Below, piece by piece: positions 9,696 through 58,001 of a stretch of DNA of 64,000 nucleotides. The stretch lies in assembly GCF_000155735.2 (NCBI RefSeq), contig NC_020908.1, forward strand, positions 62,001 to 126,000, written 5' to 3'. Source of the DNA: Octadecabacter arcticus 238. GTDB taxonomy: Bacteria; Pseudomonadota; Alphaproteobacteria; Rhodobacterales; Rhodobacteraceae. Position 1 is the first letter of the stretch, and the number at the start of each line of letters is the position of its first letter. Position numbers and translations under genes: made by a program. The notes beneath the pieces were generated by a model that was not told where the DNA came from, ran no database searches, and saw only the letters and a list, made by a program, of their open reading frames with translations.

Positions 9696-10253
9696 TTGGT
9701 AAACTCTGAATCAATGACCTCCATAGATTGGGAGGTGCTCATGGGTGGAGCCATAAAAATTACGCGCACGGATATGTCTGCGAAAGATTTGCGCCGTGCG
9801 GCAAAGCGAACCAAGGATGGGCGGGTTGTACGGCGACTACTGGCCATAGCGCTGGTGCTTGATGGGGTGGATCGTGAAACGGCTGCCCGCAGCAGTGGTA
9901 TGGATCGACAAACACTTCGGGATTGGGCGCATCGCTTTAACGCAGAAGGCATTGAGGGGTTATCGGATCGGAATGGCAAGGGGGCAAAACCACGGTTGTC
10001 GCCCAAGCAACAGGCGCAATTTGTGGCGTGGGTGGAGGCCGGGCCCGACCCAGTAAAAGATGGCGTAGTACGATGGCGTTGTGTCGACTTGCAGGCTCGT
10101 GTTGAAGAGGAGTTCGACGTGAAACTGCATGTGCGTACGATTGGGAAATATCTAACCAAGCATGGCTTTCGCCGCCTGTCTGTGCGTCCAGAGCATCCGA
10201 AAACTGATCGCGAAGCGCAGCAGACTTTTAAAAAAACTTTACCAGCCTCGTAA
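9696..10253 (+). CDS. IS630-family transposase, N-terminal frame
   Basis: The 185-aa frame carries the N-terminal DNA-binding region of the transposase. It contains an HTH (GVDRETAARSSGMDRQTLRDWAHRFN), a second winged region (DLQARVEEEFDVKLHVRTIGKYLTKHGF) and a link to the catalytic domain. It ends just after a run of seven A residues (10230-10236). The -1 frame continues as NFTSLVNDTLPEHAKGKPLE, matching the expected sequence, so a programmed -1 shift on AAAAAAAC probably yields the full enzyme. This arrangement is known in several IS630 relatives. The true start may be ATG 9714 or 9741. Confidence 0.88.
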   Translation: MVNSESMTSIDWEVLMGGAIKITRTDMSAKDLRRAAKRTKDGRVVRRLLAIALVLDGVDRETAARSSGMDRQTLRDWAHRFNAEGIEGLSDRNGKGAKPRLSPKQQAQFVAWVEAGPDPVKDGVVRWRCVDLQARVEEEFDVKLHVRTIGKYLTKHGFRRLSVRPEHPKTDREAQQTFKKTLPAS

Positions 10254-10804
10254 ACGATACTCTGCCAGAACATGCAAAGGGGAAGCCTCTTGAAGTATGG
10301 TTCCAAGATGAAGCCCGCGTTGGACAACAGGGGACACTCACCCGTAAATGGGCCAAGCGTGGAACTCGCCCGCGCGCACCCCGTGATATACGCTTCAAAT
10401 GGAGTTATATCTTTGGTGCCGCTTGTCCCGCACGTGGCACCGCCGCAGGTCTCGTCCTGCCCTACGTCAACGCCGAGGCTATGGGGCTGCATCTTGATGA
10501 GATCGCAAAAGCTGTCGCACCCGGCTCACATGCCTTGCTGATTGTTGATGGGGCGGGTTGGCATGGCGCAAAATGTTTACAGGTGCCAGATAAAATTACG
10601 CTCATGAAATTGCCGCCATACTCACCAGAACTGAACCCCATGGGAAACGTCTGGGCTTATCTGCGAGCCAATAAACTCGCAATCACAGTCTTCGACACCT
10701 ATGACGAAATACTCGACAAATGTGCACAAGCTTGGAACTTCTTTGCGAACGACCCAGAGCGAATAAGTTCAATCACAGATCGAGAATGGGCAAGGGTCAC
10801 TTAA
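10235..10804 (+). CDS. IS630-family transposase, C-terminal catalytic frame
   Basis: This frame is entered by a -1 shift near 10235 and runs to 10804; the first in-frame ATG is only at 10481. It contains the catalytic core: VWFQDEARVGQ (first Asp), LLIVDGAGWHGAK (second Asp) and LPPYSPELNPMGNVWAYLR. In the family the last motif normally reads NP-x-E-N-VW, where the Glu is the third catalytic residue. Here the codon is GGA (Gly). This single A-to-G change should abolish activity, so this copy is probably dead or depends on another copy. Confidence 0.85.
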   Translation, partial: NFTSLVNDTLPEHAKGKPLEVWFQDEARVGQQGTLTRKWAKRGTRPRAPRDIRFKWSYIFGAACPARGTAAGLVLPYVNAEAMGLHLDEIAKAVAPGSHALLIVDGAGWHGAKCLQVPDKITLMKLPPYSPELNPMGNVWAYLRANKLAITVFDTYDEILDKCAQAWNFFANDPERISSITDREWARVT

Positions 10805-11044
10805 TTCGGCCATTGGTATCAGTGGCGGCGATGCGGTTCAGGCGGCTTGGCCACGCGATGATCGTGCGCTCAACGGCGTGGAACGGGTTGAATTGCAGGA
10901 ACGTCTTACGGCGGCTGGGTTTGATACCACGGTCATCGACGGGCGTATCGGCCCGCTGACGATCAACGCGATCCGCAACTATCAACTGGCTAACAACATC
11001 ACCCCCGACGGCTATGCATCGCTTCGATTGTTGAACCGCTTGCG

Positions 11045-11515
11045 CTAGAACGCCTGTTCCTCGCAGCCAGTGCCGCGCATGCACGACAAGACACTTTGCA
11101 CGTTCGCGTCGTTGGGCGCAAAAACCGTGCTGAAACACGGATCCACATTCAAAACGTAGCCATCTGCTGTCTGCTCAACAAAGGCGAGGGTGTCCCCGTT
11201 GTTTTCGATTGACCCACACCACGGCCCGAAACACTCAAAACCCAATGTCAGGTCAAGCGTTGGCGCCGCCACAAACCCGTCGGCCCCAAGGTAGTCGCCC
11301 GAAAACGTCGCGGGCAGTCGCACGGATTGGCGATTGTTGATGTCCGCCTCATCCTCAGCGGGGGGCGAAAACGTGAACGCCCCTAACATGATGACATAAT
11401 GTTCTTGTGCATCGGACGCCCAACCAAACGTGCGGGCCACGTCAGCGCGTAAACACGACAACGCTTGGGCTTGCCCCGCGACGGCGACCAAAGCCGCTGC
11501 CAAAACTATCTTCAT
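11045..11515 (-). CDS. Small secreted hypothetical protein
   Basis: The 156-aa protein has a clear signal peptide ([18 protein letters not shown]) and a mature part with about seven Cys ([31 protein letters not shown]), which suggests disulfides in the periplasm. I do not recognise a family. Its start overlaps the rppH stop as ATGA, so it is translationally coupled to rppH and sits last in the rsfS-to-rppH direction. Its last codons overlap the 3' end of the transglycosylase gene by four bases (convergent). Confidence 0.75.
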
Positions 11516-22924: not shown

Positions 22925-23275
22925 TCCCGAAACGCCAAATTGTGGCCAGAATGTTAACAAGGGGCGCCATGCGGTGCCCCTTTTTTTGACCACAGGTCCT
23001 AACAGTTCCTGAACCGCACTTGTGCCACGTGAACCGCGCTACCCCCACATCTAGACGCCTTAATTCCAATGCTTTGAAATGGTTGCAATCTCGCACCAGT
23101 GTTGCCGCAAATCTGCCCTGATTTTTTTGCAAAACAGATCAACGGCTTGTGGCGATAACTGAAATTGGGCAACATTATGGCAACTATAAGGTAACCTGCC
23201 GACAATGAGCAGGATCAAAACGGGATAAGGGCGCGGAACGTAATCGCGACCGACCGAAATGAGGGTAAGAGAGCA
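22925..23275 (+). other. Intergenic region after leuD
   Basis: These 351 bases contain the leuD terminator (22961-22987) and the presumed promoter of the next membrane-protein gene, whose GTG start follows GAGGGTAAGAGAG. No other gene or RNA is recognised. Confidence 0.5.
22961..22987 (+). terminator. Rho-independent terminator after leuD
   Basis: The GGGGCGCC/GGTGCCCC-type hairpin (GGGGCGCCATGCGGTGCCCC) is followed by seven T residues, a typical intrinsic terminator for leuCD. Confidence 0.9.
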
Positions 23276-25015
23276 GTGTTTTCACGGCTTCCAGGTGCTG
23301 CCTTAAGGGCAGTCTTAGTGATCTTGATGATCGCTACACCATCGCTGATGCTGAAAGGTACGGCGACGGATACTGCACAAATTGTAGGTCTTGTTTGTAT
23401 CGTAGCTGGCGTATTTGTATTTGTTGAATACAACTCCAGTTCCCCAAGTCTGATAGAGTTTCGCGCCGCTCCGCCCTTCAATCGGGTCCGTTATTTTGGC
23501 CTTGCGGCGACAGTACTGGCGCTGACGGTCATCGCCAAAGGCGTGACCGAACCGACGACAATGACGGTGTTGTTTAACATCGTCGGCGGCGCGCTTGCCG
23601 AAGCCATGGACTTCCCGTACTCCCCCGTCCGCCTCGTACTCCTTTTGCTCCCTGCTGAGGCAAGTGCGGATCTCTTCGACAGTGTCCGCACCGCCGCTGG
23701 CCTCAGCTATCTTGTGTCCTTATTGTCGCTGGCGTTCTTCGTCTTGGCGCTGCGGTTGAACAACTGGCCCAACCAGCGCGGTGGCTTTAATGTCTGGACG
23801 AACCTGCCCACTTTCGACCCAACTGCCGGTGGTGACGTCGTTACTCGGCTGGAACGTGACGGACAGCTTAACCTTATATGTAACTCCCAAGGACCCCATC
23901 GGATATCGGGTTTTGTGTTGCCCTTGCGACGTTAGAGCCGAGCGATGATCTGTTGTGGTGATAGGGTGAGTGTTTCGAGGATATTGCCCCCGTGTTTTCT
24001 GACCGTCGAGATGACGGATCTGATGTCAGCGAAGACCTGCGCGCCCTCGAGGGTGCGGAAAGTTCCCGAGATTTTCATGCGCAACTTCATCATGCGCAGG
24101 TCCCGTTCGGCCTGATTGTTGGTGAAGGGAACTGTGAAGTCCGTAAGGAACCTTAGGACGTCATCACGGTAGTCGCGCAAGCGGACCAGAAGGTTATGGC
24201 CTGGCCGCCTGGCTTTTCGGCCTCGCGCACCAGTGCGTCTAGCCAGTGGGTCTTGTCGCTCATGGAAGGCGAGGCCCTCGGTGAGGATCGCCATGTATTT
24301 GGTGAGGATGCCGTGGTGAACCGACGTGGGGAGTTCGGTCTCGCCTCGCCCCTGAGCCGCGCACTTGAGCTGATTGGCGCTGTTGAGCAGCACGCTCATC
24401 GCGCACGCCCACGGCTCCTTTTCGATTTCTTCGATGGCCTTGAGTTCCCGTAAATGATGCGCCCCGCACAGGGCGTGCGCGTCCACCCCACTCATATGGG
24501 CGTAATAGGACTTCCAGTGGTCATGAACAATTGTCCCGCCGGTCAGGAAGGATGGAACAGCACCGCGCTTGGCGCTGATGCGATAATGCGTGAAGGCGAG
24601 ATCGCTGATTGAGTGCAGCCAGTGCAGCTTACCATCAACACGAAGTCCGGTCTCATCCAGATGCCGAACGCCGCCTTCATTGAGCCGGGCCAGAATGTGT
24701 TCGACGACGCCACCCAAGGTACGCGCTGTGCCGTTCACCCAGTTGGTCACGCTGGCCGCGCATAGGCTGGTGGCACCAAACAAATCACGCAGGAGTTGGC
24801 AGACCCGATCCTCGGGGATCAGCTGCTGAACATTGCAGTAGACCGCCGCCGCCCGAATGCGCTTACCGTATTGCACGTGTGCATTCACGCCATCGGGAAA
24901 GGTGGCTGTCGTCGTGGCTCGGCAATGACCACAACAATAAATCGCTGCCTGATGCTCTGTGACCTCCAGACGCGGCGGAACGTGTCAACGACTTTGAGAC
25001 AGTGGCTTTTGGACT

Positions 25016-26029
25016 TTAGGCTTGGGTTTCTTCGGTTGGTTTTGGTGGGTTGATCCAGACGGCGGTCGGGATTTGAGGCGGTTTTGGTGGTTTGTGTACG
25101 AAGCGTTCGGGCGTGGCGAGGAATGCCGCGTCTAGTGTTGCTTGTCGCGCGGTGTAGATTTCTTGGGCCTGCCCAAAATGGATTTGGTCGGGCGTCATCA
25201 GACCAATCCCGGCGTGATGATGGTCTTGGTTATACCATGCAAAGAACCTGCGGCAGAATGCGCGAGCCTGCTCGATGGTTTCAAAGTTCTTGGGGAACTC
25301 TGGCTGATATTTCAGTGTTTTGAAGTGGGCTTCGGAGAACGGGTTGTCGTTTGAGGTGTGGGGCCGACTGTGGAACTTGAGCACACCAAGATCAACCAGC
25401 ATCAGGGCTGTCGTCTTTGCCTTCATGGGCCCACCGCGATCTGCATGCAATGTCAGCTGATCGCGTGGAACCTCGTGTTTTTCCATCGCGTCGATGAACA
25501 GCTCTTTGAACTGGCTGGCGCTCTCCGCGTGCTCGACGCGCCAGCCAACAACGCGGCGGCTGAAGATGTCGAGGATGACATAGAGATAGAAGTAGGACCA
25601 TTTCACCGGGCCCCTCAGCTTGGTGATGTCCCAAGACCAGACCTGATTGGGGGCTTCAGCTAGAAGTTCAGGCTTTTGATAGACGGGATGTGTGCGCTGT
25701 CGGCGGCGTTCGCCAACTTCGCCCTGCGCGGCCAATATCCGATACATCGTGCGGATTGAACACAGATAGGTGCCTTCATCCAGCAAGGTGGCAAAGACCT
25801 CTGTGGGCGTCTGATCCGCAAAGCGGGGTTCGCGCAGGTGGTGCAATACCTGGTCTCTTTCCCTTTCCGGCAGAGCCCGCGAAGACGCTGCGCGCGGTGG
25901 GCGTGTGCGTGGTGGTGCCGTCAGCGCCGCACGCTGTCGAAGAACGCTCGCGTGCGATAATGATAGCGCGGCGCAGACAGCCGAGGTCAAGCCGCTGCCG
26001 GTGGGCAATGCAATCGCGACGGCCATCAT
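25016..26029 (-). CDS. IS3-family transposase OrfB
   Basis: The 337-aa catalytic subunit is identical to the first copy except for two residues (His in LSLSHAS and Phe in VLKFHS). The DDE residues ([18 protein letters not shown]) are intact. It overlaps orfA as ATGA. Because orfA here is complete, this is the likely active copy. Confidence 0.95.
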
Positions 26030-26508
26030 GATTTGCCGCTGCGCTCTTGCGTCTGCTCCATCTCGTCCAGAAGTCCCGCCACTTTTTTTTGGATGGCAAT
26101 GATGGCTTCCGCCTGATCCAGACGGCGCCGCAAGGCTGTCACCTCACGGTTGGCCTTGGCCAGCTCAGCTTGCAATGGATTGGCAGGTGCCTTTTGTGGG
26201 CCACGGCGCATTGGCTGCAATGCACCCAATGTGCCGGCCGCCCGCGCACGGCGCCAATCGGTCAGTGCAGAGGAATAAAGCCCCTCCCGCCGTAGAATGG
26301 CGGAAACCCCGCCAGTGTCTGCCACTTGGTCCGTCTCATCCAGAATGCGCAGTTTGTATTTGGCTGTGAAGTTGCGTCGCTTCGGGATGCTCGTCAGTTC
26401 CGCTGTGGGAGCCAACGGCGCATTAACAACGCGGGGAGGCGACGTTGGGGCCAAAACGGCTCCAGATCCAGCATCTGGCGAAAGTGGTGATTGTGAAGGC
26501 ATAACCAT
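26026..26508 (-). CDS. IS3-family transposase OrfA
   Basis: This is the complete 160-aa OrfA, starting at ATG 26508 ([14 protein letters not shown]). It has an N-terminal extension of about 45 residues, an HTH region ([15 protein letters not shown] ... ILRREGLY), and a C-terminal leucine-zipper-like helix. An alternative start is ATG 26502. It is required with OrfB for transposition. Confidence 0.93.
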
Positions 26509-27333
26509 GGTTCTTCTCCTACGCCCTCAAGTGTAAACTTTAGCCAGTCAATTGTCTCACGCTTATTGGCACGGAGGGCTGCACCGGTATGTCATAAACC
26601 TGACGCCTCTCCACCGCCTTGATCATCCCAGCCGTCAAGCCATGCTGACAGGTGCCACAGGCCTCAGCCTCATGTCGCTCCACAAAGTCAGGCGTTGCTG
26701 TCTGACGTAGGGTGTCGCCTCGGTGGCCAACTTGGCCACCACTTTTCTTACCGGACTTACCACGCAGGCTACGCGGTACCGGCTTCTTCAACCCATCACT
26801 CGAAGGCGGCTTGCTGCTATTACTGCTGTTCTTGGCCAACTGACGCCGCAGATCCTCATTCTCTTGCGCCATGCTCGCCAACGCGGCTTCCAACTCGGCG
26901 ATCCTGCGCAGAGCCGTGGCGAGGAGTTGTTCAAGAGCAGTAACTTGGTCTATTCCACCAATGATTCAGAGAAATCGTCACAGCGCCACGAAATTCAGAC
27001 CACAACAGAAAATTCATGCGCCTAATGGCCAAGGAGACTCACATCAAAACTGACAAAAACCCGTTATCGGCTGGGGTGCTTGGGAGTTACCCTTATATTA
27101 GGGTTTCTACTGCACTTCTTGATCCCAGCATTTGTGAAACTCGCCTCGGATATTTTCAACCCGATCCAGCTACAGGATTCACACACCTTAATTTGGACGA
27201 TGACCGCATGGGCCTTCATCCCCGCCAGCCTGATAATGCGCGGTATTGCGATGCTTCGCGTCGGTCAGATGATCGCCCTTCAGCGCGAACAGGCCTACCT
27301 GCGTACGCAGGAAGAAGACGTTATCCCTGTCTA

Positions 27334-36802: not shown

Positions 36803-38989
36803 TTACCGAACCCTCAATGCATTAAGGGAGACGACAATCGAACTCGTCGACATGGCAATCGCAGCCGACAGCGGTGTCGCAAAGCCAAAAAAAGCAAACG
36901 GCACAGCAACCATATTGTAGCAAGCAGCAACGCCAAAATTTTCCAGGATGCGGTGGCGGGCAGACCGTGCGATCCGCAAGGCGTCTTCAATCTTTGATAC
37001 ATCGCTTGAGATCAGGACAATATCTGCAGCAACCCGCGTCGCGTCCAACGCAGATGCGGGCGTGATTGAGACATGCGCCAGTGCCATCGCCGCCGTGTCA
37101 TTCAACCCGTCACCGACCATCAGAACGTGTTTGCCTTTGGCGTTCAGGTCTTCAAGAAATTGCGCTTTTTCTGTCGGCAGGACGCCGGCGCGCCAATCGG
37201 GCAGGCCGATTGCCTCGGCAAATCCCTCTACATTTGATGCGGTGTCGCCGGACAACAGGGTCACAGGCAGACCGCGTTTGCGCAGGTGGGCCAACAGTTG
37301 GTCGACGCCGACCCGCAGTGTATCTTGAAACTCAAAGGTTGTTCGGATGTGGCCATCTATCGCCAGAACGGTGCCGTGTCCTCCACTGCCCGCCCAGTCA
37401 GCCCGCCCTAGCGCGACGCGTTTGCCGTTCCAGCACCCTGCGATTCCATGGCCAGGCAGTTCTTTGATGTTGGTCACTGTGACAGTCGGGAGGACTTGGC
37501 CCCGTGCCGCGTCGACGATGGATCGGCTGCGCGGATGTGCCGACGCGATAGCAAGTGCTGCGGCAAGAGCGAAATCCTGTGGCGCTATATCGGTCGGATT
37601 CAGCAGTGTGGGTTTGCCCACAGTCAGCGTACCGGTCTTGTCAAAGATTACTGTGTCGACTTCGGCCAAACGTTCCAGCGCGGTGGCGTGTTTCACCAAC
37701 AGGCCACGGCGAAACAACGCACCAGAGGCGACCGTGGACACAGCAGGAACAGCTAAACCCAAGGCACAAGGGCAGGTGATGATCAGCGTCGCAACCGCGA
37801 TGTTCAGGGAATAGCGCACATCGCCACCGGACAAGTACATCCACATGACAAAGGCGGCAAACGCCAGCAGATGCACAGCGGGCGCGTAGATCGCGGCTGC
37901 GCGGTCGGCGAGCGAATTGTAGCGCGATTTGGCGTCTTCCGCGACAGAGATCAAATCCGTGAGGGAGTGCAAGAACGTGTCTTTGCCAACGGACGTCACC
38001 CGCACGTCGAGTGGGCCTGTCAGATTGATTTCGCCCGCTCGCACGATGTCATCAGGACGCACAAAGACCGGATCGGACTCGCCTGTTAGAAATGCGCGGT
38101 CAAGTTCGCTTTCGCCACGGATGATCTGTCCGTCAACGGGCATCCGCGCACCGGGTCGGACAAGAACAAGATCGCCAACGCAAAGTTCAGACAGGGACAC
38201 CGTTTGCGGCACGCCGTCCGTCACGCGCAAAGCCGTTGGCGTTTCCAATGCGGCCAGTTCAGTGGCGGCTGACCGCGCCACAGTGCGGGTGCGTTGGTCA
38301 AGATAGCGCCCAGCCAATAGGAAAAACGTCAACGACAAGGCGGCGTCAAAATAGGCGTGATCGCCAGAATGGGCGACTTCAAACAATGACATTCCAGCGG
38401 CCAGCACAATAGCGAGGGAAATTGGCACATCCATATTGAGCCGCGCAACACGCAAGGCCCGCCACGCGTTCACGTAGAACGGCTGGGCGGCAAAGATGAT
38501 CGTTGGCAATGCGATGGCGGCAGAAATCCAGTGAAACAGATCGCGGGTGACATCGCTGGCGCCAGACCAGACCGCAACCGACAGCAGCATGACATTCATC
38601 ATTGCAAAGCCTGCAACGCCAAGGCGCATCAACAGATCGCGCGCGGCGCGGTCGGACCGGTCCGCAGATAATGTGGCTTGGTCCAGCGGTTGCGCGTCAT
38701 AGCCCAATGCCGCCAACGCATTCGTCAGCACCACGTCATCAATGTCGGGTTTTACATAGATGGTCGCGCGTTTTCGGGTCAGGTTTACACGCACATCCGA
38801 CACGCCTGGCAGGGCTATCAAGCCACGCTCAACGACCGAAATGCAGGCCGCACAATTGATCGTAGGCAGGGACAGCGCGACTTCGCGGTCCCCATGCTGT
38901 GCAGCATTGCCCGCCCGCTGGGTCGCCAGCGCTGTGGCGTCGCATCCGGGGCAGGCGGACAGTCCAATATGGGTGTCCGTGACTGTCAT
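36803..38989 (-). CDS. ccoI: Copper-transporting P-type ATPase CcoI (FixI)
   Basis: CcoI moves copper across the inner membrane for the CuB centre of cbb3 oxidase. The 728-aa product starts at ATG 38989, overlapping the ccoH stop as ATGA; a longer frame to 39064 is unlikely. Domains in order are a Cys-rich N-terminus (ACPGCD), an HMA domain with INCAACISVVERGL, eight membrane helices, the actuator motif LTGESDPV, the ion-path motif TCPCALGLAVP, the phosphorylation site DKTGTLTVG, and the hinge MVGDGLNDTAAM. All are intact. Confidence 0.96.
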   Translation of the reverse strand: MTVTDTHIGLSACPGCDATALATQRAGNAAQHGDREVALSLPTINCAACISVVERGLIALPGVSDVRVNLTRKRATIYVKPDIDDVVLTNALAALGYDAQPLDQATLSADRSDRAARDLLMRLGVAGFAMMNVMLLSVAVWSGASDVTRDLFHWISAAIALPTIIFAAQPFYVNAWRALRVARLNMDVPISLAIVLAAGMSLFEVAHSGDHAYFDAALSLTFFLLAGRYLDQRTRTVARSAATELAALETPTALRVTDGVPQTVSLSELCVGDLVLVRPGARMPVDGQIIRGESELDRAFLTGESDPVFVRPDDIVRAGEINLTGPLDVRVTSVGKDTFLHSLTDLISVAEDAKSRYNSLADRAAAIYAPAVHLLAFAAFVMWMYLSGGDVRYSLNIAVATLIITCPCALGLAVPAVSTVASGALFRRGLLVKHATALERLAEVDTVIFDKTGTLTVGKPTLLNPTDIAPQDFALAAALAIASAHPRSRSIVDAARGQVLPTVTVTNIKELPGHGIAGCWNGKRVALGRADWAGSGGHGTVLAIDGHIRTTFEFQDTLRVGVDQLLAHLRKRGLPVTLLSGDTASNVEGFAEAIGLPDWRAGVLPTEKAQFLEDLNAKGKHVLMVGDGLNDTAAMALAHVSITPASALDATRVAADIVLISSDVSKIEDALRIARSARHRILENFGVAACYNMVAVPFAFFGFATPLSAAIAMSTSSIVVSLNALRVR

Positions 38990-39438
38990 CTCTGGACCAA
39001 CACCACCACGCGTTGCCGAAAGGCTGTGCCGTCTTGCGCGGTGGCTTCCATGCGCAGCTTCCAATTGCCCGGTGCGGTGGTCACCGGTGCCACGTATTTG
39101 GTTCCGGTGAACACGAAATCGGGGCTCTGATCGTCGCGCACGTTGGTGGCGCGCCCGAATATGGCATCAAGGTCCGCAACCTCAACAGGGCGACCATCTG
39201 TGTCGGTAATATTGAGGTGAAGCTCTTCGCCAGACACATCCGCCGAAACGGTCCAGCCGAGCGCCAATTGCGCCTTGCGATCTGCGTCAAAATTCTGGCT
39301 GGCGACATATGCGTTTTTAACTTCCAATCCAGGAAAGGTCGCGATTGCTGAATATGCCAGAAACAGATTGACCGAAAGGATCACGCCAAATGCGCCTGCC
39401 ATCCCGAAAAATACTTTGCGCCCTGTAAGCGGTGCCAT
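38986..39438 (-). CDS. ccoH: cbb3 oxidase assembly protein CcoH (FixH)
   Basis: The 150-aa membrane-anchored protein has one N-terminal helix (FFGMAGAFGVILSVNLFLAYSA) and a periplasmic FixH domain (GLEVKNAYVASQNFD near residue 33, then a beta-rich part with TGTKYVAPVTTAPGNWKLRMEA). It stabilises cbb3 assembly intermediates. It sits three bases after ccoG and overlaps ccoI. Confidence 0.93.
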   Translation of the reverse strand: MAPLTGRKVFFGMAGAFGVILSVNLFLAYSAIATFPGLEVKNAYVASQNFDADRKAQLALGWTVSADVSGEELHLNITDTDGRPVEVADLDAIFGRATNVRDDQSPDFVFTGTKYVAPVTTAPGNWKLRMEATAQDGTAFRQRVVVLVQR

Positions 39439-40853
39439 GATTTAGGTTCCCCCTGTGCCGTTGAAATAGGTGTCATCGTGGGCGCGGTCATCGTTGATTG
39501 TGTCCACAACCCAGAACCGCATTGCCGTACGAACAACGGTTGACGCGGGGGTTTGCGCCGCGGCGCTGACAAAGACCCGCACAAGATAGGTTGAATCGGC
39601 TGGCACATTCACGACGTCATCACCGCTGGCTTGTCCCTGAACATCAATTTGAAGCGCGGCGTCTGATGTAACCGACAATTCAAACGGCCGCGTTTCACCG
39701 TGTTTGTTGCGCAGGCGGATTTCGTAGACATTGCGGATCGTGCCATCAGACAGCACGACATAAGTCGGGTTGCGCACCGCAGCGACGGTCATGTCGATGT
39801 CGGACTGGATGAACAAAGCCACCACCAAGCCCAGTCCGACAATGGACCACAAGCTTGAATAAATCAGCGTGCGCGGGCGCAGGATATGCTGCCAAACGCG
39901 CTTCGTCGGCTGGCCTTTTCGTTCCGCGTCTTCATCATCAAGTGACAGGTAATCAACAAGCCCGCGTGGTTTGCCGATCTTGGTTATGATGTCGTCGCAG
40001 GCATCAATGCACAGCCCGCATGTGATGCATTCCATTTGTTGGCCGTCGCGGATGTCGATGCCGACAGGGCAGACGTTGACGCAGGCCATGCAGTCGATGC
40101 AATCGCCTTGCGGGGTCTCTTTGGTGATCGCGTCGGAATGTTTGCGTGGTTCACCGCGCCATGAACGATAACCGATGGTGATCGTGTCTTCGTCCATCAT
40201 CGCGGCTTGGATGCGTGGCCACGGACAGGCATAGATGCAAATCTGTTCGCGCGCGATCCCGCCGAAGAACACGGTGGAAACGGTCAGAAATGCCATGGTC
40301 GTATAGGCCACCGGATGTGCGGTTCCGTTGATCAGGTTCACCAAAAGCGTCGGCGCATCGGTGAAATAGAACACCCACGCGCCACCTGTGGCCAATCCGA
40401 TCAACAGCCAAACGGCGAATTTCGTCAATCGCAACCTGAGTTTGCGTACGTCCCATTTTGCATTCCAAAGACGGACGCGGGCGTTGCGGTCGCCTTCAAT
40501 CCAGCGTTCCGTGGCGATGAACAGGTCCGTCCAGACGGTTTGTGGACAGGTATAACCACACCAAACGCGGCCCATGGCAGAGGTGAACAAGAAAAGGCCA
40601 AGGCCCGCCATGATCAGTAATCCGGCAATGAAATAGAATTCATGGGGCCAGATTTCAATCCAGAAAAAGAAAAACCGCCGACTGGCAAGATCAACCAGAA
40701 CCGCCTGATCAGGCAGTTCCGCGCCGCGGTCCCACCTAATCCATGGCGTTAGATAATAGGTAAACACCAAGGGAACCCCCTCTGTTTAGGGCAGATCTGA
40801 TCTGTGATTATTGCGCGAAGCTGGCGATTTGCTAGCGCAATTTGAGGGATTTG

Positions 40854-41198
40854 ATGATGGGCAAGCAGCAGCGAGGTCGCGGCACCAAATACGATGATGT
40901 GTTCAAGCGTCAGCTTGTGGCGGAAAGCCATGCGGATGGCGTGAGCGTTTCGATGGTATCAAAGCGACATGGGGTGACGACGAGTCGGATATACGCGTGG
41001 CGGAATGATCCCTTGTTTCAAGAACAACCAGCCACGCCCACTGAGTTTATGCCTGTTGAGGCACTTGAGGGGACTACGGCATCGCGATCTCCCGGTCCTA
41101 AAATAGAAATCACGCTTGAGAACGGTCGCAAACTGAGTGTGAGAGATGATGTTGATGCTGGCTTTGTGCTGGAACTAGCGCGAGGACTTGCAGCATGA
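40854..41198 (+). CDS. tnpA: IS66 accessory protein TnpA
   Basis: The product of about 114 aa (starting at ATG 40854; a TTG at 40842 is possible) has an HTH of the IS66/IS3 OrfA type ([37 protein letters not shown]). It overlaps tnpB as ATGA. In IS66, TnpA and TnpB are both needed with TnpC for efficient transposition. Confidence 0.93.
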
Positions 41199-41542
41199 TC
41201 CCTGTGCTGGGGGATGCAAAAATCTGGCTTGCGGCAGGTGTCACGGATATGCGGCGCGGGTTCAACGGGCTGGCTGCGCAAACAGAGCAAGTTCTGGCGG
41301 GTGATCCTTACGCGGGGCATCTGTTTTTGTTCCGAGGTCGTCGTGGGGATCAGATCAAGATGATCTGGTGGGATGGTCAGGGCGCATGCCTCTTCACCAA
41401 ACGCCTTGAGCGAGGTCGGTTTGTGTGGCCCTCAGCGCGCGAGGGCAAGATCAAACTGAGCCACGCGCAGTTGGCGATGCTGATGGAGGGGATTGATTGG
41501 CGCATTCTTAAGAAAACATGGCGACCTTCAATGATTGGATAG
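41195..41542 (+). CDS. tnpB: IS66 accessory protein TnpB (Orf2 family)
   Basis: The 115-aa protein matches the IS66 Orf2 family closely: [40 protein letters not shown] and [17 protein letters not shown]. Its exact role in transposition is unknown. It is coupled to tnpA by ATGA overlap. Confidence 0.95.
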
Positions 41543-41653
41543 GCTCATATTTTGTTGCTGTATTTGTCTTTGTGGGATTCCCATAAAGCCCCAATCCTGG
41601 TACAAAATGATATGAGTTAGATCCCTCCAAATCTGGCTAATCTGCCCCCTGAA

Positions 41654-43312
41654 GTGCAGGCGCTGTTCGCCGCGCAGACCGCAGAATTGGACCGTAAGGA
41701 TGCAGAAATGTTGGGCCAATCGCTGAGCCATGCGGCTGCACAAAAGCGCCTCAAGGCTGAGATGGCATCAGTGGACGCCGCTCTGAGTGCCGAGCGCTCC
41801 GCTCATGCGCGTGCCATCCAGAACCGAGACACCATCATCGCCGATCTGCGCCTGCAACTTCACGGTCACAAAAAACACCGTTTTGGCTCAAAGTCAGAAA
41901 GCAGCGCACAACTGACGCTGGAGTTGATCCTTGAAGAGATGGAAATCGAACAAGCCGCTGAGACGGATGATGAGGATGCGTCCTCTGACGCAGAAGCCAA
42001 GCCGCCCCGCACGCCGCGCAAGCGCAAACCCTTTCCGAAAAACCTCAAGCGGGTTCAGACGACCATCACCCCCAGTGACGCTTGCACCGATTGCGGCGGC
42101 AGCTTCAAAGTGCTTGGAACGGATGTGATGGAAGAATTGGAATATGTCCCGGGCCATTACATCGTGAACCAAATAGGCCGCCCGCGTCTGGCTTGCACCT
42201 GTTGTGAGAAGGTCGTCCAGGCCGAGATGCCAAGCCGCCCCATTCCAAAGAGCTTTGTGGGGCCCGCGCTGATGGCCCACATCTTGTGCTGCAAATACGG
42301 CTATCACCTGCCGCTGTATCGCCAGAGTCAGATGTTTGCCAATGAAGGCATAGATCTGAGTGGTTCGCTCATGGCGGGTTGGGTCGGTAAATGCACCAAA
42401 CTGCTGGAGCGCGTCTCAGATGCAATCCGCGATCACGTCTTTGAGGCGCAGGCCATCTTCATGGATGATACCACGGTCAAGCTGCTCCAGAAGGGCAAGG
42501 GTCGTGGCAAGAATAAGACCAAAACGGCGCGACTGTGGGTCTATGCCCGAAAAGAAAATACTTGGGCCAGCGGAGTACCACCTGCGGTGTGGTACCAATT
42601 CTCCACCAGTCGAGGGGCTGAACATCCCAGTCAGCATCTGGCTACCTATGAAGGCTTTGCCCATGCGGACGCCTATGCTGGGTATAATGACGCGTACCGA
42701 ACGGGACGCATCAAAGAGATGGCCTGTATCGCGCATGTGCGACGTGAGATCTTTGATCTTTATGAAAGCACAAAGCTGCCTGTAGCTGGCGAAGCTGTGC
42801 TGCGGATTAAAAAGCTCTATGATGTTGAGACACAAGCGCGGTTCCTGCCAGCATCTGAACGCGTGGCCCTGCGTCAGGAATACGCCAAACCGATCTTTGA
42901 CGACCTAGAGGTCTGGCTTAAAGAGCAACTGGGTAAAATCTCCAGCAAGACGCCGCTGGCCAAGGCGATCAAATATGCGCTTGCCCGCCTGCCCAAGGCA
43001 CGTCCCTATCTCGATCACGGCTTTCTTGAGTCGGACAACAACACAGCTGAGAACGCAGTGCACCCTGTGGCCGTTGGCCGTAAAAACTATCTCTTCATGG
43101 GATCAGAAGCAGGCGGTAAATCTGCCGCCATCGCCTATACCCTCATTGAGACAGCCAAGATGAACAAGGTAAATCCCGAAGCCTGGCTTGCTTGGGTGCT
43201 GGAACGCATCCAGGACCATCCAGCAAACCGTATAAACGATCTCATGCCGTGGGCCTATCAGGACATGATCAACGCTAAAACCGCCGAGGCCGAGGCAAAA
43301 GGCGCTGCTTGA
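41654..43312 (+). CDS. tnpC: IS66 transposase TnpC
   Basis: The 552-aa transposase has a coiled N-terminus, a zinc-finger-like part (CTDCGGSFKVLG ... LACTCCEKV) and the DDE_Tnp_IS66 domain: AIFMDDTTVKLL, FAHADAYAGYND and DNNTAENAVHPVA, then GSEAGGKSAAIAYTLIETAKMNKVNP. The likely original start is ATG 41612, where the frame reads M-S-stop-IPPNLANLPPEV. A TAG at 41618-41620 replaces the expected codon 3, leaving GTG 41654 as the next start. The shortened form loses about 14 residues and may still work. Confidence 0.92.
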   Translation: MQALFAAQTAELDRKDAEMLGQSLSHAAAQKRLKAEMASVDAALSAERSAHARAIQNRDTIIADLRLQLHGHKKHRFGSKSESSAQLTLELILEEMEIEQAAETDDEDASSDAEAKPPRTPRKRKPFPKNLKRVQTTITPSDACTDCGGSFKVLGTDVMEELEYVPGHYIVNQIGRPRLACTCCEKVVQAEMPSRPIPKSFVGPALMAHILCCKYGYHLPLYRQSQMFANEGIDLSGSLMAGWVGKCTKLLERVSDAIRDHVFEAQAIFMDDTTVKLLQKGKGRGKNKTKTARLWVYARKENTWASGVPPAVWYQFSTSRGAEHPSQHLATYEGFAHADAYAGYNDAYRTGRIKEMACIAHVRREIFDLYESTKLPVAGEAVLRIKKLYDVETQARFLPASERVALRQEYAKPIFDDLEVWLKEQLGKISSKTPLAKAIKYALARLPKARPYLDHGFLESDNNTAENAVHPVAVGRKNYLFMGSEAGGKSAAIAYTLIETAKMNKVNPEAWLAWVLERIQDHPANRINDLMPWAYQDMINAKTAEAEAKGAA

Positions 43313-43573
43313 TCAAGGCCGTGCTGATAATTATGTCTCCGCGGCCCCTAGCTCATCATAAAATCCAAACCCATTACGCCGGCCAAATAACAGCTTCGCA
43401 CAAGAATCCCAGATCAAACCGGGCCCAAACAAGGGGGTTCCCTTGGTGTTTACGATAATAGACGCCCAGCGTCAGGATCATAATGCCCCATTTAAGGGAG
43501 CGGAATTTACCCTTCACCTTGCGCGGAAAGAAAGGCTCGCGTTTCGCATAAAGTGGCTTGTGGTCGGTGGACG

Positions 43574-44461
43574 TCACTGCGCGCTGCCAAGTTGATGAAC
43601 GTAAGTGGCAACGGCATTTATTTCAGCAAGACTAAGGCCGCTCGCACCACGGAATTCTTCGGACCACGCTGGCATAGCGCCAAAGCGGGCATTCTGAATG
43701 GTCGTGCGGATCGTGTCCGCGTCGCCGCCATATAGCCAGATTGCATCGCTCAGGTTTGGCGCGCCGATCTCTTGCAGTCCGGTCCCTGCATCACCGTGAC
43801 ACGCCGCACAGTTATCAAGGAACAGCGTCGACCCAACCCCTGCCAGAACTGCTTCATGGTCTTGACCCGAAATTGAAAGGACGTGCTGAACGATCGCGTC
43901 AATCTCGTCATTCGTGAGGATTTCGTCGGCGCCAAAAGCGGGCATCTGGGAATAGCGGCTGTCCATTGACTGTTCGTTCCGGATGCCGTGGGTGACTGTG
44001 TAAGCAATTTGTTCGATATCGCCGCCCCACAACCAGTCATCGTCAAGCAGGTTTGGATAACCACCAGCCTGTACGCCAGCAGCACCACGTCCGTGGCACT
44101 GCGAGCAGTTCGCCGCAAAAATGGACCCGCCCGCGTTAACTGCAAAGGTGTGCAATTCCGCGTCGTCGCGGATCGCCGTCAGGTCCGCCGTAGCCAGCCG
44201 TGCCAGAATTTCGGCGTTTGATGCATCCACGCGGGCAATGTCTTCGGCAACTTCACCTCGTGTCGAATAGCCCAACAGACCTGTCGTCGCGCCATTGATC
44301 ATCGGCCAAGCAGGGTAGGCGATTGTATAGCCCACAGCCCAGATGATCGTCAGATAGAAAACCCAGACCCACCAACGTGGCATTGGACTGTCGAGTTCTT
44401 CGATGCCGTCCCAAACGTGACCTGTGGTTTCAACGTCGTCTTTTTTGTCTGGCTTATTCAT
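43574..44461 (-). CDS. ccoP: cbb3 cytochrome c oxidase subunit III (dihaem)
   Basis: CcoP passes electrons from cytochrome c to the oxidase core. The 295-aa protein has an N-terminal membrane helix (WVWVFYLTIIWAVGYTIAYPAWP) and two periplasmic haem-c sites, CSQCH (Cys119-His123) and CAACH (Cys218-His222), with methionines for axial ligation in SQMPAFG and GAMPAW. It overlaps ccoQ and ccoG by four bases each. It is intact. Confidence 0.97.
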   Translation of the reverse strand: MNKPDKKDDVETTGHVWDGIEELDSPMPRWWVWVFYLTIIWAVGYTIAYPAWPMINGATTGLLGYSTRGEVAEDIARVDASNAEILARLATADLTAIRDDAELHTFAVNAGGSIFAANCSQCHGRGAAGVQAGGYPNLLDDDWLWGGDIEQIAYTVTHGIRNEQSMDSRYSQMPAFGADEILTNDEIDAIVQHVLSISGQDHEAVLAGVGSTLFLDNCAACHGDAGTGLQEIGAPNLSDAIWLYGGDADTIRTTIQNARFGAMPAWSEEFRGASGLSLAEINAVATYVHQLGSAQ

Positions 44462-44655
44462 TTTTGACCCTCCGGACCTTTGGTGGTGTCGATGATTGGA
44501 CCGTCTTCGTTGCGGAATATGACATCTGCGGCGTCAGCGTGCAGATCGCGTGATCCGGGTCGGAAGGCCCAAAGCCAAACGCCCACAAGGAAGATGAACA
44601 GCGCCAGCAGCGCCCAGCTGTCGGCGAGTTCGCGAAGGAATGAATAGGTGTCCAT
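44458..44655 (-). CDS. ccoQ: cbb3 oxidase subunit CcoQ (FixQ)
   Basis: The 65-aa single-helix protein (WALLALFIFLVGVWLWAF) has a short charged tail (RPGSRDLHADAADVIF). It stabilises the cbb3 complex. It lies between ccoO and ccoP and overlaps ccoP as ATGA. Confidence 0.94.
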   Translation of the reverse strand: MDTYSFLRELADSWALLALFIFLVGVWLWAFRPGSRDLHADAADVIFRNEDGPIIDTTKGPEGQK

Positions 44656-44666
44656 GTGCTGTCCTC

Positions 44667-45392
44667 CTAGCGGCTTGCGTCGGGCGTGAAGGTCGAAAAG
44701 TCGACCAGCGTGCCCAGCATTTGAAGGTATGCGACCAGCGCATCCATTTCGGAAATTCCATCACTGCTATCGAAGTTGCGGACCTGTGCGCCGGGGTAAC
44801 GTTCTACCAGTGCATCCCAGTCGCTGTACTGGTCGGCTTGAGCGATGAAATCTGCCTGCGCATTTTCGATCATGTCGTCCGTGTAGGGGATGCCGACAAA
44901 CGCATGGGTCCTGACCAGATCTTCGATGTGATCGGGTTCGATAAAACGGTTCATCAAGAACGAATAGGGTGGCATAATCGATTCCGGCACAACTGATTGT
45001 GGATCACTGAGGTGATCAATGTGCCACGCGTCCGAGTACCGCCCGCCAACGCGAGCAAGGTCCGGCCCTGTCCACTTGGACCCCCATTGAAATGGGTGGT
45101 CATACATGGATTCCGCCGCGAGCGAATAGTGGCCATACCGTTCGACTTCGTCCCGTATCGGGCGGATCATCTGACTGTGGCAGACGTAGCAGCCTTCGCG
45201 CACGTAAATGTCCCGCCCCGCCAGTTCCAGCGGGGAATACGGGCGCATGCCCTCGACCTCCTCGATTGTGTTTTCAAGATAGAACAGCGGCACTATTTCA
45301 ACGATGCCGCCAACGGCGACAACCAACAGGCTGCCGACCAAGAGGAGCGATGCGTTCTTTTCGATGACCTTATGGCGATCAAGAATTCCCAT
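44667..45392 (-). CDS. ccoO: cbb3 cytochrome c oxidase subunit II (monohaem)
   Basis: The 241-aa protein has an N-terminal anchor helix ([24 protein letters not shown]) and one haem-c site, [14 protein letters not shown] (Cys68, Cys71, His72). The distal Met ligand is likely in [10 protein letters not shown]. It is intact and lies eleven bases after the ccoN reading frame. Confidence 0.97.
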
Positions 45393-45403
45393 AATCAGCC
45401 TCC

Positions 45404-47005
45404 TTATTCAGCGGGGACGGCAGCGGTGGAACTTGCAGCAGGTTGCTGCTTTCCAAAGGCTGTCATCCAAAGGTTATAACACATGATAATTGCGCCAGTG
45501 AGATAGAGGGCTCCACCCAGTCCGCGAACGACATACATCGGGAACTTGGCTCCGACGGTGTCAGCAAAGCTGTTCACCAAGAAACCCTGTGCGTCGACTT
45601 CGCGCCACATCAGACCTTCCATGATCCCTGTGACCCACATCGAAGACGCGTAAAGAATGATCCCGATTGTCGCGAGTCAGAAGTGTTAGTTCACCAGACG
45701 CAGCGAATAAAGCCCCGCGCGGTTCCACAGTTTTGGTGTCATGAAATACAGCGCCGCAAACGTGATCATACCGTTCCAGCCAAGCGCGCCGGAATGCACG
45801 TGGCCGATGGTCCAGTCGGTATAGTGGCTCAGCGAATTCACCGCGCGGATCGACATCATCGGACCCTCGAATGTGGACATGCCGTAAAAGCCGAGTGAGA
45901 TGACCATCATGCGAATGATCGGGTCGGTGCGGATTTTGTCCCATGCACCTGACAGCGTCATCAAACCGTTGATCATGCCACCCCAGCTGGGCATCCACAA
46001 AACGATTGAAAACACCATGCCAAGGGTCGTCGCCCAGTCTGGTAACGCGGTGTAGTGCAAGTGGTGCGGACCGGCCCAGATGTACAAGAAAATGAGTGAC
46101 CAGAAATGCACGATCGACAGTTTGTAACTGAACACTGGCTTACCGGCCTGTTTGGGGACGAAGTAATACATCATGCCCAAGAAACCGGCTGTGAGGAAGA
46201 AGCCAACAGCGTTGTGGCCGTACCACCACTGGGTCATCGCGTCCTGCACACCTGCAAAGACTTGCACTGATTTAGAGCCGAAGATGCTGACAGGAACTGA
46301 TAGATTATTGACGATGTGCAGCATTGCGACGGTCACGATAAAGGCCAGGAAGAACCAGTTCGCGACGTAGATGTGCGGTTCTTTGCGCTTGACGATCGTG
46401 CCCATGAACACGACCAGATAGGCGACCCAAACGATGGTTAGCCAGATATCCACGTACCATTCAGGCTTGGCATATTCTTTCGATTGGGTCGATCCCATCA
46501 AATACCCCGTTGCAGCGAGTACGATGAACAGGTTGTACCCCCAAAACACGAACCACGCGGTATTGCCGCCCCATAGACGTGCAGCGCAGGTGCGTTGCAC
46601 GATATAGAATGACGTGCAGATCAACGCGTTGCCACCGAAGGCAAAGATCACCGCAGAGGTGTGGAGCGGACGCAGGCGGCCAAAGTTGCCGTAACCCTGC
46701 AGGAACTCAAAATTCAGGGATGGAAACGCCAACTGGAAAGCGATGAACGTTCCGACAAGAAATCCTGCCAGCCCCCAAAACGCAGTTGCAACCACGCCGT
46801 ACCGGATCACACCGTCCATATAGCCTGTTGGCTCTGGCGGCCTGATGTCATCAGCCGTGCGCACCGACCAAACAAACATTCCCGCTGATATGATCATGAT
46901 GATGATAGCATGAATTTGATAGGCGATGTCGCGCGCCCAACTTGCGGCTACAGCCGCGAGCAGGGTGACAACCCCGAACGCCACTATCTTGAACCAATTC
47001 CACAT
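45404..47005 (-). pseudogene. ccoN: cbb3 oxidase catalytic subunit I, two nonsense codons
   Basis: CcoN carries haem b, haem b3 and CuB and reduces oxygen. The start is ATG 47005 after GAAGGGAACG; an upstream ATG at 47071 is possible. Typical motifs are present: [56 protein letters not shown], and [13 protein letters not shown] (His ligands). After GLYSLRLVN the same frame reads [22 protein letters not shown], then [20 protein letters not shown] to the end at 45404. The homologous sequence is NWHFWLAT, so TAA (45686-45688) and TGA (45677-45679) replace Trp codons. Truncation removes the last two helices, so the oxidase is probably inactive. Confidence 0.93.
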
Positions 47006-47122
47006 CGTGGCGTTCCCTTCTTCGAATAGGACGAATGTGTCCTGCAAATATTTATGCGACGGGTTTTTCACGGATCAGCGGAAGGCCGCCTTGATCCAAA
47101 TTAAACAAATGCGCGGTTTTTC

Positions 47123-47136
47123 TTGACTTCAATCAA
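47123..47136. promoter_or_regulatory. FNR/FixK box between ccoN and usp
   Basis: TTGACTTCAATCAA matches the FNR consensus TTGAT-N4-ATCAA at nine of ten defined bases. It lies 118 bases before ccoN and 56 bases before usp, in the divergent promoter region. The fnrL gene itself is 0.9 kb away, so oxygen control by FnrL is expected. Confidence 0.85.
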
Positions 47137-47192: not shown

Positions 47193-48032
47193 ATGAGCTA
47201 CAAAACCATTGCTATCGTCATCTTTGACGAGGTTGGCGACAAAGAAGCGCTGCAAACTGCAGTCACATTGGCAAACCGTGAGGGCGGCCACCTGGATGTC
47301 TATTGTCTTGGCATCGATCCGGTACGCTACGATATGGCACCGATGGGGGCGTCACCAGCATTGACGTTATCAGGCCGCGGTGAGGCGGAGACGCGGGCCA
47401 AGACATTGGTCGACTGGGCGGAAGACCGTCTTAGGGACGCTTTGGTGCCAACGGCGGTCCAGAAATTGGTCGTCACATCTGCTGGCCTCGATGCGGCCAT
47501 TGCGCGGGTCGTGCGGTATTCCGACCTGATCATCGCATCACAGCCCTACGGCGAGGGGTCGACGCAGGTGCAGACGATTATTCTTGAGGCGGTTTTGTTT
47601 GGCACTGGCGCGCCCGTTATGGTTATTCCGCGCACCGCCGAAAATATCGGACCCTTTGAACGGGTCATGGTCGCATGGGACGAAAGCACCCAAGCACTGG
47701 AGGCCGTGCGCAAAGCCTTGCCTGCCCTAAAAAATGCCACACGAGCCGAGATCGTCATGATCAACCCGCCCTCCCATTCGCCGGAACGATCCGATCCGGG
47801 CGGCGTGATTTGCGTGATGTTGGCGCGCCACGGCGTTAAGGCGGACGTGTCGATCCTTGCCAAAACAATGCCGCACGTCGCCGAGGTCATCAACCGTCAC
47901 GCACAAGACCATGCAATCGATTTGATCGTCATGGGCGCATACGGTCATTCGCGCTTCCGCGAAGCGATGATTGGTGGTGCGACCCGCGACATGCTTGAAA
48001 CGGCTCGTGTTCCGATACTGATGGCGCACTAA
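47193..48032 (+). CDS. Universal stress protein, two-domain
   Basis: The 279-aa cytoplasmic protein has two UspA-like domains (residues about 1-145 and 155-279). The second ends with the ATP-binding pattern GAYGHSRFREAMIGGATRDMLETARVPILMAH. It has a strong ribosome-binding site (CAGGAGTACTGACC). It is divergent from ccoN under the FNR box, as in other Rhodobacteraceae, and probably acts under low oxygen. It overlaps the 3' end of fnrL by four bases. Confidence 0.94.
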   Translation: MSYKTIAIVIFDEVGDKEALQTAVTLANREGGHLDVYCLGIDPVRYDMAPMGASPALTLSGRGEAETRAKTLVDWAEDRLRDALVPTAVQKLVVTSAGLDAAIARVVRYSDLIIASQPYGEGSTQVQTIILEAVLFGTGAPVMVIPRTAENIGPFERVMVAWDESTQALEAVRKALPALKNATRAEIVMINPPSHSPERSDPGGVICVMLARHGVKADVSILAKTMPHVAEVINRHAQDHAIDLIVMGAYGHSRFREAMIGGATRDMLETARVPILMAH

Positions 48033-48766
48033 AGGTGCGAGATCGCGTCACTGCCAGTCTGCGCCAACAAACGCGCCATATCGGGCACGACCACCTTCCG
48101 TTTGCCTTCAAGCAGAATAATACCCTCCCGCTTCAGCGCGGAGATTTGGCGGCTGACTGTTTCCAGCGTCAGACCCAGATAATCCGACATCGCCTCGCGG
48201 GTGAGCGGCAAATCAATCGTCACGGGCGCATTAATCTTAGGAACATCGTGGGCCTGTTCGCGGTGGGCAATGATGGTCAGCAAACTCGCGATTTTTTCAC
48301 GCGCAGTTTTGCGACCAAGGATCAACATCCATTCGCGGGCTGCATCCAGCTCATCCATCGTCATTTCCAGCAGTCGTTCGCCAATGTGGGGGGGGCGAAC
48401 CAACATGTCCTCAAATGGTTTGCGCCTGAAACAGCACAGTGTGACATCTGTGATCGCGCACACGTCATAGGCTGATGTCTTGCGCCAAGGACGGCCGATA
48501 AAATCGGACGGAAGTAACAGGCCCAGCATTTGCGTGCGCCCGTCCTCAAGTGTTTGCCCCAACGTCGCGACACCGCGCACAACAGAACCCACAAAGGTCA
48601 GATCATCACCTGCCCATGCTATTGTTTGGCCTGCCTCAAACGTCCGGTAAAATTTCATGTCTTCAAGCAATGCCAATTCATCGGCCTCGCACTTAGAGCA
48701 GACGGCGCGGTGGCGGATTGGGCAATCGGCACATTGTAGGTCGAATTTGGATTTTTTGATTGCCAA
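48029..48766 (-). CDS. fnrL: Oxygen-responsive regulator FnrL (Crp/Fnr family)
   Basis: FnrL senses oxygen with a [4Fe-4S] cluster and activates or represses anaerobic and microaerobic genes. The 245-aa protein has Cys12, Cys15, Cys23 and Cys26 near the N-terminus and Cys104 (YDVCAIT) as the likely internal ligand. The cNMP-like sensor domain follows, then the HTH (MSDYLGLTLETVSRQISALKREG). It likely controls ccoN and usp through the box at 47123. It looks intact although the cco operon is damaged. Confidence 0.96.
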   Translation of the reverse strand: MAIKKSKFDLQCADCPIRHRAVCSKCEADELALLEDMKFYRTFEAGQTIAWAGDDLTFVGSVVRGVATLGQTLEDGRTQMLGLLLPSDFIGRPWRKTSAYDVCAITDVTLCCFRRKPFEDMLVRPPHIGERLLEMTMDELDAAREWMLILGRKTAREKIASLLTIIAHREQAHDVPKINAPVTIDLPLTREAMSDYLGLTLETVSRQISALKREGIILLEGKRKVVVPDMARLLAQTGSDAISHL

Positions 48767-57686: not shown

Positions 57687-57863
57687 TTATTCCTGAACCA
57701 TGCACAGGCCAGATATCGCGTCTGGCGACACACAGTCTTTGGAGACTGTGACGTCCGCAGCGGGCGGGAACGATAAGTTTGGAAGAGAAAATGAGAAGCC
57801 GCCGGCCGTTGCGGACGTGGCGAGCATCAGGGTCGTTGCGGTGACAAGTGCGATGCGTTTCAT
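57687..57863 (-). CDS. Small secreted protein under TetR control
   Basis: The 58-codon gene starts at ATG 57863 after GAAAGG. It encodes a clear signal peptide (MKRIALVTATTLMLATSATA) and a mature part of about 38 residues (GGFSFSLPNLSFPPAADVTV, then SKDCVSPDAI) with two Cys. It is short enough to be missed by length filters. Two TetR-type operators lie 35-90 bases upstream. The function is unknown; possible roles are a periplasmic stress or metal peptide. Confidence 0.7.
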   Translation of the reverse strand: MKRIALVTATTLMLATSATAGGFSFSLPNLSFPPAADVTVSKDCVSPDAISGLCMVQE

Positions 57864-57897
57864 AGTGCGTGCCTTTCAGGTGAACTTGATTTCCAAA

Positions 57898-57955
57898 TAA
57901 CTAAACCGATCAGTTTAGTTACGCAAGCATTAAATGAACTGATCGGTTCACTTTA
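57898..57955. promoter_or_regulatory. Paired TetR operators O2 and O3
   Basis: O2 (57899-57920) is AACTAAAC-CGATCA-GTTTAGTT, and O3 (57935-57950) is TGAACTGATCGGTTCA. Both share the ACTGATCGGTT-type core, and their centres are 33 bases apart, about three helix turns. They lie between the divergent small secreted gene and mbfA, so one TetR could control both. Confidence 0.75.
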
Positions 57956-57986
57956 TGCACTTGATGCTGTCCCAAAGAGGGGTACA

Positions 57987-58001
57987 TTAGAACAATTCTA
58001 A
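57987..58001. promoter_or_regulatory. Irr-type iron control element before mbfA
   Basis: The perfect palindrome TTAGAA-CAA-TTCTAA lies 15 bases before the mbfA start. It matches the alphaproteobacterial Irr box (ICE, TTTAGAA-N3-TTCTAAA). mbfA is a known Irr target in rhizobia, so iron-dependent control is likely. Confidence 0.8.

Follow-up and report, generated by a model that had tools for sequence, protein, structure and literature searches.

Nonsense codons in ccoN and a split ccoG point to probable loss of the cbb3 oxidase in Octadecabacter arcticus 238

Introduction

Does Octadecabacter arcticus 238 still possess a working cbb3 oxidase? The question is raised by a stretch of its genome (the window: the whole of the DNA analysed here, 64,000 nucleotides, numbered from its first base) in which ccoN, the gene for the catalytic subunit of that oxidase, carries two stop codons close to one another. 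The initial annotation of this DNA, made from the sequence alone, proposed that the main high-affinity oxidase of the strain is probably lost or being lost.

In the genome paper (Vollmers et al., 2013; PMC3646047), 411 pseudogenes are described for O. arcticus 238 and 361 for O. antarcticus 307, about 20% of them unlinked to transposable elements, and the O. arcticus replicons are given as 5.2 Mb, 160 kb and 118 kb. The O. arcticus genome used here (G000) has 5,478,249 bases in three contigs (5,200,279, 159,683 and 118,287 bases) and is rated 100% complete. The cco lesions described below lie in the same two genomes as those pseudogenes, and the words oxidase, cytochrome and ccoN are absent from the main text of that paper.

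Results

A TIGR00780 profile search of the whole O. arcticus 238 genome returned one ccoN (799 bits; cut-off 583), with the stops read through in scoring and flagged as "1 TGA, 1 TAA." This sole ccoN starts at an ATG at 47005 and reaches the family stop at 45404 (Table 1); an in-frame GTG is also present 66 bases upstream of the ATG (47071). The reverse strand reads CGT CTG GTG AAC TAA CAC TTC TGA CTC GCG ACA, and the translation of 45404-47005 runs RLVN*HF*LATIGI, with good CcoN sequence on both sides and in a single frame, just as the initial annotation had described it. The score places the gene in the CcoN family, and its frame is broken on the way to the family C-terminus, at codons 440 and 443 of 533.

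Residue 439 is the last before the first stop, and the final 94 codons begin with both stops. Structural matches by sequence included 6xkw (758 bits, residues 1-438) and 3mk7 (549 bits, residues 59-439), the CcoN of Rhodobacter capsulatus and of Pseudomonas stutzeri; both of these are full-length, whereas the O. arcticus gene has its two stops. The 90-residue part 3' of the second stop aligns to the C-terminal region of five CcoN chains of known structure. This agrees with the earlier view that the last two helices are lost, while a hydropathy scan beyond the stops gave one clear segment and not two.

Table 1. Features of the cco region (window coordinates unless a genome and contig are given)
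Feature	Position	Strand	Remarks
ccoN pseudogene, cbb3 oxidase catalytic subunit	45404..47005	-	TIGR00780, 799 bits
ccoN codon 440, TAA	45686..45688	-	TAC (Tyr) in G008 and G002; homologue alignment
ccoN codon 443, TGA	45677..45679	-	Trp in 91/91 homologues; homologue alignment
ccoN codon 180, AAG (Lys)	46466..46468	-	Glu in 90/91 homologues readable there, one gap
ccoO, ORF intact	44667..45392	-	
ccoQ, ORF intact	44458..44655	-	
ccoP, ORF intact	43574..44461	-	
ccoG 5' piece, about 41 codons	43454..43577	-	
IS66-family element within ccoG	40760..43453		8-bp direct repeat GATAATAG, matching inverted ends
ccoG 3' piece	39442..40759	-	
ccoH, open	38986..39438	-	
ccoI copper ATPase, open	36803..39064	-	
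Degraded FNR-type box TTGATCCAAATTAA, upstream of ccoN	47091..47104		G008 matches the full pattern at this site
FNR-type box TTGACTTCAATCAA, still matching	47123..47136		
fnrL-like regulator gene, open	48029..48766	-	
cbb3 cluster with lesions, O. antarcticus 307 (L013, L119, L120)	G002:C2:445500-453000		
Alternative oxidase loci L143, L144, L145, O. arcticus 238	G000:C1:3127971-3128549, 3507918-3508523, 1378780-1384205		

Both stops had been placed at conserved tryptophans, which proved right for the second only. The column of codon 443 holds Trp in every one of 91 homologues; at codon 440 there are 80 Trp, 5 Tyr, 4 Leu, 1 Ile and 1 Thr, and Tyr, encoded by TAC, is what the closest relatives have. 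The 91 leave out L065 and L097 (2 of the 80 named loci, in which the motif was not found) and also L015-L020, which comprise a fragment at a contig end, a divergent second ccoN in genome G006, two weaker matches, the aa3 gene and a duplicate of the window's ccoN locus. The nearest relative (G008, 93.5% identical DNA over 16.2 kb) and O. antarcticus 307 (G002, identified by a 100% match to plasmid NC_020907.1 over the 15,000 bases tested) both read AAC TAC CAC TTC TGG at this place. Polarised by these two genomes, a single base changed in each codon on the O. arcticus branch, turning TAC into TAA and TGG into TGA. The single change supposed for TGA is borne out by the TGG of G008; two changes from TGG had been supposed for TAA, and a TGG ancestor was rejected there because the nearest relatives carry TAC, from which one change suffices.

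Among 18 ccoN-family matches in the genus, 16 had no inner stop, the two exceptions being those of the window and of O. antarcticus; the gene is intact in G018, taken to be O. temperatus. None of twelve other ccoN genes (L002-L013), nor the fragment L014, stops in the stretch of codons 440 and 443, which disposes of the idea that close relatives naturally end at this point. In a protein search with the truncated CcoN, in which 8000 candidates were scored, the best 120 of 7999 matches all had identities of 87% or less, so that no independent strain came to light; the genome collections compared hold one genome per species. One CcoN sequence, 76% identical (P0020), came from a eukaryote transcriptome set under an organism name starting with Thal and is probably bacterial contamination. 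Of the 4806 single-base substitutions that the G008 ccoN allows, 185 create a stop. Two nonsense mutations placed at random in separate codons would lie no more than 9 nt apart with P = 0.009 (mutation types unweighted), a spacing that hints at one clustered mutation event.

Codon 180 of the same gene has also changed: Lys stands in O. arcticus CcoN where all 90 homologues readable at that column have Glu, and the position aligns with Glu125 of the P. stutzeri CcoN (3mk7).

The intact ccoG expected of a functional cbb3 oxidase is missing as well, the gene being split by an IS66-family element. This element has a transposase (PF03050 match at G000:C1:104248-105120, window 42248-43120), inverted ends and an exact 8-bp target duplication, found at 40752-40759 and 43454-43461; duplications of this length are typical of IS66. 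As ccoH and ccoI follow downstream of the insertion, on the strand of ccoG, a polar effect on both is possible. At least 74 IS66 hits were found in O. arcticus (74 of 140 candidates scored), 16, mostly short and weak, in O. antarcticus, and each of the remaining 17 genomes had 0-3; the genome paper gives 81 and 3 IS66 genes for the two named species (PMC3646047). Elsewhere in the window, a gene that by eye resembles a lytic transglycosylase (8592-11045) is broken by an insert of transposase-like sequence (about 9650-10818) and is in one piece in O. antarcticus; at 23165-27328 one O. antarcticus gene matches as two pieces, with about 3.2 kb containing transposase-like genes between them; and at 57700-57998 a small G008 reading frame matches in two frames, likely a frameshift.

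Two COX1-family genes were found in O. arcticus, ccoN itself and one open aa3-type ctaD, and the genes for aa3 subunits II and III are open elsewhere in the genome. Rescue by a second ccoN was rejected on these counts: the search for another copy gave the one TIGR00780 match, and the second COX1-family gene is ctaD. Beside ctaD (L125:5833-7695) stands a transposase-like gene where G008 has a 217-residue reading frame; ctaD is open. Searches of the O. arcticus and O. antarcticus genomes found no cytochrome bd, so that for O. arcticus the description of cbb3 as the main high-affinity oxidase holds. O. arcticus has two open alternative oxidase (AOX) genes, and a third that is broken up among IS elements; O. 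antarcticus has one open AOX gene and one fragment. G008 (89% complete) keeps both cbb3 and cytochrome bd, and no AOX was found in it.

The cbb3 cluster of O. antarcticus is damaged in other ways. Its ccoN carries W193* and W513*, both codons being Trp in O. arcticus and G008, together with W155G, V214L, G277S and G347S at positions that do not vary among the 89-90 other homologues readable there, and there are deletions of 17 bp in ccoP, 2 bp in ccoI and (in frame) 9 bp in ccoO. No lesion is common to the two polar species. The disabling lesions of O. arcticus are thus absent from its nearest relatives, the G008 cluster being intact and the O. antarcticus lesions different. A ctaD tree built from 17 of the 19 genus genomes places G008 as sister to O. 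arcticus with support of 0.96. With no common lesion and an intact sister, the losses appear independent, and an ancestral loss common to both polar species was rejected on the same grounds.

Two FNR-type boxes lie between ccoN and a universal-stress-type gene (47091-47136), and the fnrL-like gene is so named by its resemblance to that regulator. G008 matches both boxes, O. arcticus the far one only and O. antarcticus the near one only; this complementary decay argues for separate histories.

Across the 19 genomes of the genus, ccoN and ccoO were each found in 15 and ccoG in 14. All three are missing from genome G016 (99% complete) and from the drafts G010, G012 and G014 (85-89% complete), and these four genomes are not grouped together in the ctaD tree; in the drafts the absence could reflect assembly gaps.

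Along its own branch the O. arcticus ccoN gained 30 synonymous, 5 missense and 2 nonsense substitutions; the corresponding counts on the O. antarcticus side are 92, 22 and 2. The raised dN/dS expected under relaxed selection is not seen: ccoN has an omega of about 0.07, a value inside the 0.00-0.38 that the neighbouring genes span. Such a value suggests that the loss in O. arcticus was recent, since most of the branch would have passed under selection, and with ccoO, ccoQ, ccoP, ccoH and ccoI still open it points to an early stage of decay of the cluster. The low figure fits a loss only if it is recent, and a still-working gene would give the same figure, save for the two stops and E180K. These branch counts treat each base separately, and the ccoN stops were checked codon by codon; a single "nonsense" change counted in the O. 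antarcticus fnrL is absent from its translation, and the row of an sbtA-like gene is spoilt by a non-matching stretch.

Discussion

We hold with high confidence that the ccoN of O. arcticus 238 is a young pseudogene, the only ccoN found in the genome, in a strain that should form no active enzyme and belongs to an IS- and pseudogene-rich lineage, probably under relaxed selection. The changes of Tyr440 (TAC to TAA) and Trp443 (TGG to TGA) would truncate CcoN after residue 439 of 533; the IS66 insertion splits the assembly gene ccoG and may also cut transcription of ccoHIS. As far as sequence can tell, cbb3 function has very probably been lost: ccoN is broken and has no second copy, and E180K and the disrupted ccoG add to the initial annotation's case. 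A cell of this strain would be unable to form active cbb3 oxidase and would respire through the aa3 oxidase and two alternative oxidases. We infer both the loss of activity and its cause, which would be relaxed selection on high-affinity respiration in a polar lineage rich in IS elements and pseudogenes. O. antarcticus would have lost the same cluster separately; on their gene sequences, the two polar species seem to have taken this step apart from one another.

The stops could be due either to an error of sequencing or assembly in a gene that is really intact or to true codons that the cell reads through or recodes, or else a truncated CcoN of 439 residues might still work. The spacing of the stops, only 9 bases apart and improbable as two independent events (0.9%), speaks for an error; however, both differences are substitutions with no indels, the same cluster also carries E180K and an IS66 insertion bordered by a clean duplication, and the genome was Sanger-sequenced, gap-closed and polished, with 411 pseudogenes described (PMC3646047), so that we consider an error very unlikely. 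A gene still in use would explain the low own-branch dN/dS of ccoN and the five open neighbours (ccoO, ccoQ, ccoP, ccoH and ccoI), but readthrough would have to pass two different stop codons 9 bases apart and would leave E180K and the broken ccoG as they are. Because the O. antarcticus ccoN has its stops elsewhere, there is no conserved recoding site, and the truncated form would lack the 90-residue part that aligns with the C-terminal part of five solved chains; readthrough, recoding or a truncated product that still works is together the least probable of the explanations that we weighed.

A young pseudogene under relaxed selection may be set against a loss that was itself selected at both poles: in cold, oxygen-rich ice the cbb3 oxidase might be a burden, and both gas-vacuolate species might have dropped high-affinity respiration and shifted electrons to aa3 and to as many as three copies of AOX, with a light-driven proton pump alongside. 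The independent losses in both named polar species would suit this idea, as would AOX in both with cytochrome bd found in neither, and the xanthorhodopsin pumps that PMC3646047 reports for both. Parallels come from other Roseobacters: all six pelagic clusters lack cbb3 and bd genes, apart from cbb3 in two deep-branching species of one cluster (PMC12661815), and all CHUG members have aa3 with cbb3 in subgroup M1M2 only, their oxygen affinity differing accordingly (PMC9426536). Within the 19 genus genomes, however, the associations are slight: bd is absent from 6 of 6 genomes that lost cbb3 and 7 of 13 others (p=0.11), and AOX is present in 3 of the 6 and in 3 of the 13 (p=0.32), with G007 and G009 (ccoN fragments at contig ends) scored as cbb3-positive and G010, G012 and G014 as lost. 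The genome-wide load of IS elements and pseudogenes offers a neutral reason (PMC3646047). Moreover, G008, which keeps cbb3 and bd, is probably also Arctic, its divergence fitting the 93.5% ANI of a cryoconite MAG (PMC8548342). If G008 is that MAG, an Arctic habitat is not explanation enough for the loss, and the adaptive version is weaker for it; we regard convergent selection as conceivable but rather unlikely.

Part of this picture was already in print. PMC12661815 and PMC9426536 cover the absence of cbb3 in oxygen-rich pelagic Roseobacters and its effect on oxygen affinity in CHUG, and the pseudogene- and IS-rich state of both polar genomes was known, so that cbb3 loss is a fresh example of it. 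Octadecabacter resembles these Roseobacters in missing the high-affinity oxidase (and CHUG in keeping aa3); it differs in that the genes are absent there, whereas two related Octadecabacter species still have the cluster, each with independent lesions of its own. In the literature on Octadecabacter cbb3 and respiration available to us we found no report of independent loss in both named polar species, though one might stand elsewhere, and none on Octadecabacter and alternative oxidase. PMC8548342 depicts a cbb3 oxidase in its drawing of the cryoconite MAG, which has 93.51% ANI to O. arcticus, and credits O. arcticus with the MAG's aerobic and microaerophilic features; our results may correct that reading.

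What this locus would offer is a high-affinity oxidase caught in the course of being lost, with the whole cluster still readable, twice in a small clade that also holds one intact species. The timing of oxidase loss in oxygen-rich polar habitats, and the reason for it, would thereby become testable through oxygen-uptake kinetics.
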